From positions 109,083-173,082 of the forward strand of contig CACXIV010000001.1 in the NCBI GenBank assembly GCA_902767845.1: a stretch of DNA of 64,000 nt. The letters are read 5' to 3'. The position numbers were made by a program, and so were the translations under genes. The stretch comes from an uncultured Ruminococcus sp. (GTDB lineage Bacteria > Bacillota > Clostridia > Oscillospirales > Acutalibacteraceae). The notes under the pieces are model-generated. The model saw only the letters and a program-made list of their open reading frames with translations, ran no database searches and was not told the origin of the DNA. Below, piece after piece: positions 29,843-64,000 of the stretch (positions are counted from its first letter, which is position 1; each line of letters opens with the position of its first letter).

Positions 29843-29871
29843 TTGACATATCCGTTTTGCGGTGCTATAAT
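29843..29871 (+). promoter_or_regulatory. cysK promoter
   Basis: Perfect consensus TTGACA (29843-29848), 17-bp spacer, TATAAT (29866-29871). Leaves a leader of about 127 nt before the cysK ATG. Confidence 0.85.
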
Positions 29872-29922
29872 AAACCTACCAAACACGTAGGAATAGTAAA
29901 TATTGAGAAAGGTATGTTGGTC

Positions 29923-30021
29923 ATGTTAGGTACAAAACGATGTTGGTTTTGCGGTAAATTAAAACATATCCAAAATCAAAATCAATTATTAAGGAGTAAT
30001 TATTATGAAAGTATACGATAA
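29923..30021 (+). CDS. Leader ORF with cysteine codons overlapping cysK
   Basis: 32-codon frame, [13 protein letters not shown] at its start, with Cys7 (TGT) and Cys10 (TGC), placed inside the cysK leader transcript. GAGAAAGG at 29905-29912 gives ten bases of spacing to ATG 29923 (an earlier in-frame ATG, 29914, is too close). It runs through the cysK ribosome site (AAGGAG 29991-29996) and stops 17 bases into cysK in another frame. CAAAAC 29933-29938 and GTTTTG 29946-29951 form a hairpin over the Cys codons. Cys codons in a leader before a cysteine synthase suggest translation-based sensing of cysteine. Not proven to be translated. Confidence 0.5.
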
Positions 30022-30934
30022 GATCACAGACATCATCGGCAAAACGCCTCTTTTAAGACTCAGCAACTATATTGATGAGAACAACCTCGAAGCGGATGTT
30101 TTCGCGAAGCTTGAGTATTTCAATCCCGCCGGAAGCGTCAAGGACAGGATAGCCAAGGCTATGATCGACGACGCCGAGGCTAAGGGCGTCATCAAGCCCG
30201 GCGCGGTCATTATCGAGCCCACCAGCGGCAACACTGGTATCGGACTCGCGTCCGTCGCCGCTTCGCGCGGATACAAGATCATCCTCACAATGCCCGAGAC
30301 CATGAGCGTCGAGCGCCGCAATCTTCTTAAGGCATACGGCGCAGAGCTTGTGCTTACAGACGGCGCCAAGGGAATGAAGGGCGCTATCGAAAAGGCTAAC
30401 GAGCTTGCAGCTCAGACTCCCAACAGCTTTATCCCCAGTCAGTTCAAGAATCCTGCGAATCCCGAGATCCACACAAGGACTACCGGTCCCGAGATCTGGG
30501 AGGATACCGACGGAAAGGTCGATATTTTCGTTGCGGGCGTAGGTACAGGCGGCACGCTTTCGGGCGTAGGCAAGTTCCTCAAGAGCAAGAATCCCGGAGT
30601 AAAGGTCGTCGCGGTAGAGCCCGCGGGCTCTCCGGTGCTCTCAAAGGGAACTCCCGGACCGCATAAGATCCAGGGAATCGGCGCAGGTTTCGTGCCCGAT
30701 ACTCTCGACACCGGTATCTATGACGAGATCATTCCCGTAGAAAACGAGGACGCCTTCAAAACAGGCAGGGCTCTTGCTAAAGGCGAGGGAGTGCTTGTCG
30801 GAATTTCCTCGGGCGCGGCTGTATGGGCGGCTTCGCAGCTCGCCAAGCGCCCCGAGAACAAGGGCAAGATCATTGTTGCTCTGCTTCCCGATACGGGCGA
30901 GCGCTACCTTTCGACACCTATGTTCACCGAGTGA
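30005..30934 (+). CDS. cysK: Cysteine synthase A (O-acetylserine sulfhydrylase)
   Basis: 309 aa, typical. PLP enzyme making cysteine from O-acetylserine and sulfide. [14 protein letters not shown] contains the PLP lysine, [11 protein letters not shown] the substrate loop, and GTGGTLSG the phosphate-binding loop. RBS AAGGAG nine bases before ATG. Followed by a hairpin terminator, so alone in its transcript apart from the leader ORF. Confidence 0.97.
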
Positions 30935-63846: not shown

Positions 63847-64000
63847 GTTTGCCCGGAATGGGTAGTAACTCGGTGGTGAAAGTCCACTACACGCTTGGCA
63901 TTAGGAAGTGATAGCTGAGGGCAAGGGTGTCCGTCGTGAGGCGGAATCTGAAGTAAGCCTAAAGCAAACTCTCGGTCTGACGAACAGGAATCGCATATAA
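63847..64000 (+). mobile_element. 5' end of a group II intron (domain I), cut by window edge
   Basis: From about 63847 (GTTTGCCCGG, a GUGYG-like 5' end) the sequence follows bacterial group II intron domain I: GGTGGTGAAAGTCCACTA, GGGCAAGGGTGTCCGTCGTGAGG and CGGTCTGACGAACAGGAA. It starts right after the terminator T-run, the insertion habit of class C introns, though the class cannot be fixed from this piece. The reverse transcriptase/maturase must lie beyond the window. Confidence 0.75.

Follow-up and report, generated by a model that had tools for sequence, protein, structure and literature searches.

The cysK locus and its leader ORF

The window, that is, the whole analysed stretch of 64,000 nucleotides, belongs to a genome (G000) with an assembly of 1.7 Mb and a completeness of 87%. 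It harbours cysK, encoding cysteine synthase A (30005..30934; TIGR01139, 475 bits, cut-off 351), which, like all features of the locus described here, lies on the forward strand. Upstream of cysK, a promoter with the -35 hexamer TTGACA (29843..29848) and the -10 hexamer TATAAT (29866..29871) was present. The two hexamers match the consensus at 12 of 12 positions with a spacer of 17 nt, and the -10 hexamer is preceded by TG. At the predicted transcription start lies a dyad, CCTACCAAACACGTAGG, of the form CCTA-N9-TAGG (29875..29891). It is followed by a ribosome-binding site recognised by sequence, AGAAAGG (29906..29912), and by a leader ORF of 32 amino acids (29923..30021), assigned from the sequence and from relatives. 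Further possible in-frame starts are TTG at 29917 and ATG at 29914, the former corresponding, by eye, to the site of the ATG in the nearest relatives.

The leader ORF possesses Cys at codons 7 and 10, and its stop ends 17 nt within cysK. Codon counts and relatives point to the Arg codon CGA (29938..29940) ahead of the putative sensing codon, the Cys codon TGT (29941..29943). At 29944..29946, TGG replaces TGA, the usual stop in the leaders of relatives, so that the frame of the window continues into cysK (KRC-W-FC-GK...). Folding predicted a hairpin across the sensing codon (29939..29983) and a weak A+T hairpin (29984..30001), whose loop contains part of the cysK ribosome-binding site AAGGAG (29991..29996), itself recognised by sequence. 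A sequence-only reading of this stretch had described the promoter, the ribosome site, the 32-codon frame, both Cys codons and the stop inside cysK, all of which were confirmed in the sequence, together with a hairpin on the Cys codons, which folding also predicts; the dyad was not part of that description. Of the 668 Arg codons in 34 mechanically chosen window ORFs of at least 250 codons, 29 are CGA, fewer than of any other Arg codon.

Leaders and codon pairs upstream of cysK and metY

Upstream of cysK, relatives share the promoter and dyad of the window, behind which lies a far smaller ORF that usually ends with Arg-Cys-stop (CGA-TGT-TGA). The encoded peptides include MVILGLMRC (L045), MVILGLTRC (L046), MVIQGSKRC (L047), MAVKRC (L049), and MNYYKVYERC (L019), and the leader of Holdemanella biformis DSM 3989 (L178) is MKRCCSSLNELY. 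The listed peptides of the other cysK and metY leaders are mostly far shorter than that of the window. NCBIfam returned zero matches for eight leader peptides, and Pfam zero matches above the cut-off for five. In cysK leaders the position of CGA ranges from codon 3 to codon 16. The codon after CGA-TGT, recorded at 17 protein-selected places, is TGA in 11 and TAA in one, the remaining codons being TGG (the window), TGC, AGC, CAA, and AAT, once each. A cysteine-sensing leader before cysK, as proposed from the sequence, is strongly supported by these relatives, in which the promoter and the in-frame CGA-TGT recur. The length of 32 codons, the overlap with cysK, the second Cys codon and the CxxC are not the conserved features, a stop following CGA-TGT in 12 of the 17 places. 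The conserved element is CGA-TGT, a pair that the sequence-only reading had not picked out.

Two kinds of loci were noted beside these. The promoter and dyad of cysK are kept and no leader ORF was detected in L300/L015, L016/L293, L052, and L063, the last two found by DNA search; there the cysK ribosome site lies just behind the dyad, and these loci are natural controls. Among 44 non-redundant leaders with RC-TGA, pattern-selected ones included, 13 possess an in-frame Cys at codon +2 past the stop, and one, five, one, zero, and two possess it at +1, +3, +4, +5, and +6, respectively. The Cys at +2 could reflect readthrough, TGA/TGG alternation, or RNA pairing.

Conservation of the codon pair was assessed in unbiased sets, composed of upstream regions picked by protein alone, from which loci found by pattern or DNA search were removed, and made non-redundant (42 of cysK and 42 of metY). 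The hexamer CGATGT was present in 16 of the 42 cysK upstream regions (200 shuffles: mean 0.80, maximum 3), so that the leader ORF exceeds chance. Likewise, CGAATG was present in 31 of the 42 metY upstream regions (200 shuffles: mean 2.04, maximum 7). Of the 17 CGATGT, 16 are in register with an ATG that follows a ribosome site and starts an open frame, as are 27 of the 32 CGAATG; the counts for the two alternative frames are 1 and 0. Many of the 26 protein-selected cysK upstream regions lacking CGATGT are distant. By coordinates, cysK lies at most 60 nt behind metY in 12 genomes.

The choice of CGA was also evident when any Arg codon before Cys or Met was allowed, a test that does not presuppose CGA. 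All 16 in-frame Arg-Cys pairs before cysK are CGATGT; other Arg-Cys hexamers occurred 11 times, always out of frame. Before metY, all 27 in-frame Arg-Met pairs are CGAATG, with zero occurrences of other Arg codons, and the in-frame Arg-Cys pairs are ten CGATGT, one CGCTGT (L247), and one AGGTGT (L282, in a longer frame). Among the protein-selected metY leaders, 11 conform to LRxN(F/Y)RxGxM, a criterion applied regardless of codons; CGA precedes Met in all 11, and their other Arg codons vary over AGA, AGG, CGC, CGG, and CGT. Across 113 leaders, including those selected by pattern, 114 Arg codons lie elsewhere than before a sensing codon, and 6 of these are CGA. Exceptions to CGA are CAA-TGT in L257, alongside CGA-ATG, CGC-TGT as second sensor in L247, and the AGG-TGT of L282. 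A T directly after the sensing codon was found in 14 of 16 cysK leaders and in 32 of 32 metY leaders. Columns of the metY leaders outside CGA-ATG-T(G) hold at most 0.88 bits (n=32).

The sensing codon differs with the pathway. Upstream of cysK, CGATGT was found in 78 out of 111 regions, a number inflated by pattern-selected loci, and CGAATG in two out of 111. Upstream of metY, CGAATG was found in 45 of 60 regions, and both CGA-TGT and CGA-ATG in 23 of 60. The window genome also possesses a metY leader of its own, MTMVLRTLTDANRKAERMCF (L273). The leaders usually carry a single regulatory Cys or Met behind CGA and sometimes one or two extra Cys; tandem runs of regulatory codons were absent from the cysK and metY leaders examined. 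Ahead of the sensing codon it is a codon, and not the residue alone, that is conserved, and the identity of the sensing codon matches the pathway. The family, its frame, its codon pair and its association with these genes are apparent in the sequences themselves.

Distribution of the leaders and the promoter dyad

The pattern CCTA-N9-TAGG-N20-50-CGATGTTG, which like its stricter version includes CGATGTTG and cannot show the invariance of CGA or TGT, as the protein-selected sets can, occurred 48 times, in 43 of the 161 genus genomes searched (reversed pattern: 8). Thirty of the 48 matches were inspected, of which 24 lie before cysK and six before metY. The stricter version with TATAAT, searched in the genome contigs of 84,980 species, detected 68 stretches: 54 before cysK, seven before metY, one before cysE (TIGR01172), three cut by contig ends, and three without these genes. 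The last three (Arachidicoccus, Paenibacillus, and Cytophagaceae) are apparently due to chance. The records of the other stretches are named Ruminococcus, Oscillospiraceae, Ruminococcaceae, Clostridia, Clostridiales, Eubacteriales, Bacillota or bacterium, and also include Holdemanella biformis DSM 3989, H. porci, and one Erysipelotrichaceae MAG.

Class-wide, 391 genomes were searched for the promoter with CGATGTTGA; 21 of them gave 22 matches in total, and the control gave 12. Two of the 22 (L114 and L116) are confirmed cysK leaders and the remainder, as listed, looked chance-like, so that the family in its strict form is not class-wide. A search for the promoter with CGA-NNN-TGA gave 70 matches in 52 of the 161 genus genomes, and zero in a control that has little weight because the promoter was reversed as well. 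The triplet was in frame in three of 30 inspected loci (NNN being Arg in two alike loci and a stop in one), and a fourth of these loci is a cysK leader missed by the frame test. An extension of the leaders to other amino acids was considered and rejected, a further amino acid not being seen in the 30 loci. A CGATGTTGC leader (..ECRCCRPCC..) was observed ahead of cysE in L145, and the leader family may reach serine acetyltransferase. Gene finders would easily miss leaders this short.

Dyads of the CCTACCAAACACGTAGG type are also present ahead of other cysK and metY genes. The pattern TATAAT-N0-15-CCTA-N9-TAGG was found 29 times, in 18 of the 35 genomes searched, compared with 16 times for the control, and single dyad matches therefore need caution. 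In the window genome (L316, G000:C2:8706) and in L294, the dyad precedes a gene for an Rrf2-family protein; both proteins match Pfam PF02082, and that of L294 is under the NCBIfam cut-off for CymR. It is possible that the dyad is the operator of an Rrf2-family regulator, and its position ahead of Rrf2 genes suggests autoregulation by the dyad-binding protein. Two layers of control, with an Rrf2 protein acting at the promoter and a leader acting in the mRNA, can reasonably be supposed.

The promoter and dyad also precede Met- and Cys-rich leader ORFs, for example MKVKAIFTMMLMGGSCMSSCLSCQK, in L321 (G000:C14:28080, in the window genome), L299, and L305. Behind these leaders follow a terminator-like hairpin and T run, found by search in L299 and L305 and by eye in L321, and a gene for a class II glutamine amidotransferase (PF13230, tested for L299). 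The three loci look like classical transcription attenuators. In L311 (G002:C33:15683), a dyad promoter is followed by a poly-Cys leader (..SNNCCCIACCIKQGG..), a strong terminator-like hairpin, and an ORF which we take to be methyltransferase-like.

Proposed sensing, output and relation to known systems

We consider it likely, from the sequence comparison, that this conserved leader family senses a shortage of charged tRNA-Cys or tRNA-Met and that a halted ribosome raises the expression of cysK or metY. The ORF of the window would be a variant of a family of very short leader peptides found in Clostridia and a few Erysipelotrichaceae. The cysK leader would sense the lack of charged tRNA-Cys. 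The leader of metY, encoding O-acetylhomoserine sulfhydrylase, carries CGA-ATG (Arg-Met), which would sense charged tRNA-Met, and often CGA-TGT as well, which would sense tRNA-Cys. The sensing unit would be a codon pair, composed of the rare CGA, probably read by inosine, and a single codon specifying the end product. When Cys-tRNA is scarce and CGA occupies the P site, the ribosome would halt at TGT, and expression of the downstream gene would increase. Stalling, the slowness of CGA and the sign of the regulation are what we infer here. The narrower proposal of a new sensor design, which we hold at about even chances, is that CGA in the P site, through its weak inosine-adenine wobble, makes the ribosome hypersensitive to the supply of the single next codon. 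Such a CGA-X module would serve Cys at cysK and Met at metY, would be doubled where both matter, and would work without codon runs, Rho or terminators.

The tRNA search in the window genome found 23 genes, a list that is incomplete, as it lacks a tRNA-Arg for AGA or AGG. Among them, tRNA-Arg ACG and CCG were present and tRNA-Arg TCG was absent, and CGA is therefore probably read by inosine. The A:I pair was reportedly addressed by Curran in 1995. In yeast, as described in the available part of PMC6301793, tRNA-Arg(ICG) decodes CGA; repeats and pairs of this codon stall ribosomes, and its presence in the P site destabilises elongation. The ICG wobble and the P-site effect would be alike, but that work, in the same part, concerns eukaryotic reporters and not a natural bacterial sensor (PMC6301793); by analogy, CGA may behave similarly in these leaders. 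Several points speak against the codon-pair sensor: a single Cys codon is few for sensing starvation, and the near-invariant T after the sensing codon is not demanded by the pure codon-pair model. The exceptions to CGA, the leaderless cysK genes, the rarity of the strict pattern class-wide and the lack of a general output structure also count against it.

Several other explanations were weighed. An unlikely one is nascent-peptide arrest, in which the Arg-Cys or Arg-Met end would sense Cys or SAM, either within the exit tunnel or on termination, similar to TnaC. The stop immediately behind the pair in many leaders and a group of metY leaders with a common LRANFRFGRM-like peptide are in agreement with it. 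However, the cysK peptides share little beyond RC, with at most 0.80 bits per base in the columns outside CGA-TGT-TGA, including those upstream of CGA (n=16), CGA can be as early as codon 3, and Cys, Trp or others replace the stop in several leaders; moreover, the choice of Arg codon should be irrelevant to a peptide. Somewhat less probable again is that conservation reflects an RNA or DNA sequence, CGA(A)UGU, to which a protein, an sRNA or the ribosome site of the gene binds, with translation being incidental. Conservation is indeed at the nucleotide level, as synonymous variants of CGA and TGT were not found in frame before cysK and a T follows, and the motif is itself base-paired next to the cysK start in L132 and L083. 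Yet the frame with the start codon is kept while leader length varies, and the extra A follows the pathway (Met versus Cys). Regulation by the promoter operator (Rrf2/CymR type) alone, with the leader ORF as a passive relic, appears very improbable: the dyad is conserved and also lies ahead of Rrf2 genes, and some cysK genes possess the dyad and no leader, but a passive ORF would not hold a rare codon pair and a frame across families. The genuine CxxC microprotein that the sequence-only reading offered as an alternative deserves hardly any credence, since, although the frame is intact in the window and a zf-FCS match was found under the threshold (18.6 bits, cut-off 22.4), the nearest relatives end after the first Cys and the 32-aa peptide has weak matches only (best beyond its own genome, among 58 relatives: E 0.145).

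Under the preferred reading, that of charged-tRNA sensing by the codon pair, the output step may differ between leaders. An unstructured region past the leader suggested Rho-dependent attenuation, a candidate that was rejected. Rho (TIGR00767) was above the cut-off in none of 22 genomes of the genus and in one of 35 overall, using a profile that matched 12 of 14 known control genomes, including B. subtilis, and exceeded the cut-off in eight. Matches of E<=0.001 were found in 14 of the 35 genomes, 13 of them far under the cut-off. A Rho route of the actinobacterial type is therefore unlikely in the genus. Intrinsic terminators were detected in none of 78 cysK leaders, in one of 49 metY leaders, and not at all on the forward strand of the window. 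The search recovered the hairpin and T run in four positive controls; the hairpin that it reported for L321 lies inside the leader.

In a subset of leaders, halting would expose a ribosome site that is otherwise masked. When folding was computed with a ribosome on the sensing codon, the freeing of the ribosome site was in the top 5% of 20 own shuffles in 16 of 41 metY leaders (about four expected) and in 12 of 66 cysK leaders (about six expected). Six of the 36 cysK leaders nearest to the window passed this test, with about three expected. The gain in the window was 1.15 kcal/mol (rank 0.05), and 0.61 (rank 0.10) with more of cysK included. Swapping partners between leaders gave a null result on average (mean ranks 0.465-0.491). 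Masking is clearest in two metY leaders, L094 and L249, whose UUGUAAUACC lies opposite GGUAUUACAA at the ribosome site. This pairing is retained in L147 and L254 with one wobble change each, and in L098 both sides have changed, UGUAACACC pairing with GGUGUUACA, the leader change being synonymous (AAT to AAC). Sequestration of the ribosome site as a general output was rejected, as it holds in a subset only and the swap test is null on average. In the models, the leader would hide the ribosome site in a subset, above all in metY leaders, and the case of the window is weak. For the clade of the window, the halted ribosome might instead shield the mRNA from 5' decay; in the window only, it might clear the cysK start of running leader ribosomes. 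Direct coupling to cysK through the ORF overlap is possible in the window genome.

In attenuators of the ermC type, known from Firmicutes, translation of the leader controls the next gene, and stalling may either make a ribosome site accessible or stabilise the mRNA (in part from PMC2965389). That kind has no amino-acid specificity, whereas the leaders described here are codon-specific and possess a predicted hidden ribosome site in a subset only. Amino-acid leader peptides are themselves an already known kind, of which a cysteine type has been proposed in Actinobacteria and a histidine type in bacilli, according to the accessible sections of PMC1262725, PMC4633059, and PMC2965389. The same portions of PMC1262725 and PMC4633059 describe short actinobacterial ORFs before cys genes with Cys codons near the end, in runs or clusters, whereas here usually one Cys lies behind CGA. 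In the available text of PMC1262725, these have no obvious terminator and Rho is suspected; here, Rho is not above the cut-off in the 22 genus genomes, and there is in addition a Met version before metY. The histidine leader peptides of bacilli came from a terminator screen and hold a stretch of His codons, as far as the text of PMC2965389 at hand goes; they share with the present family the sensing of an amino acid by a leader peptide in Firmicutes, but no codon stretch is found here. In C. perfringens, cysK is preceded by a Cys T-box with the specifier TGC and a terminator, as given in the available part of PMC2940859. Similar to the present leaders, it lets the supply of cysteine act on cysK via the mRNA leader, through a TGC specifier versus a translated TGT here. 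Rfam gave no T-box match and no matching family, with one sub-threshold sRNA match (SraB, E 0.62).

In 2010, the sensing of amino acids by leader peptides was almost unknown outside Proteobacteria and Actinobacteria, as stated in the accessible text of PMC2965389. No account of these cysK and metY leaders was found among open-licence PMC papers. As far as the open-licence literature shows, the new element is a Clostridia family at cysK and metY, free of Rho and terminators, with a fixed CGA before one sensing codon. It would represent codon-pair sensing of both cysteine and methionine in Clostridia apparently devoid of Rho. Should CGA prime the codon behind it, these leaders would provide a natural test, in bacteria, of the control that a wobble pair in the P site exerts on decoding in the A site, and could serve as a compact element of engineered starvation sensors.

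At the end of the window (63930-64000), we also found the start of a group II intron (RF02001, 62 bits), truncated by the window end.
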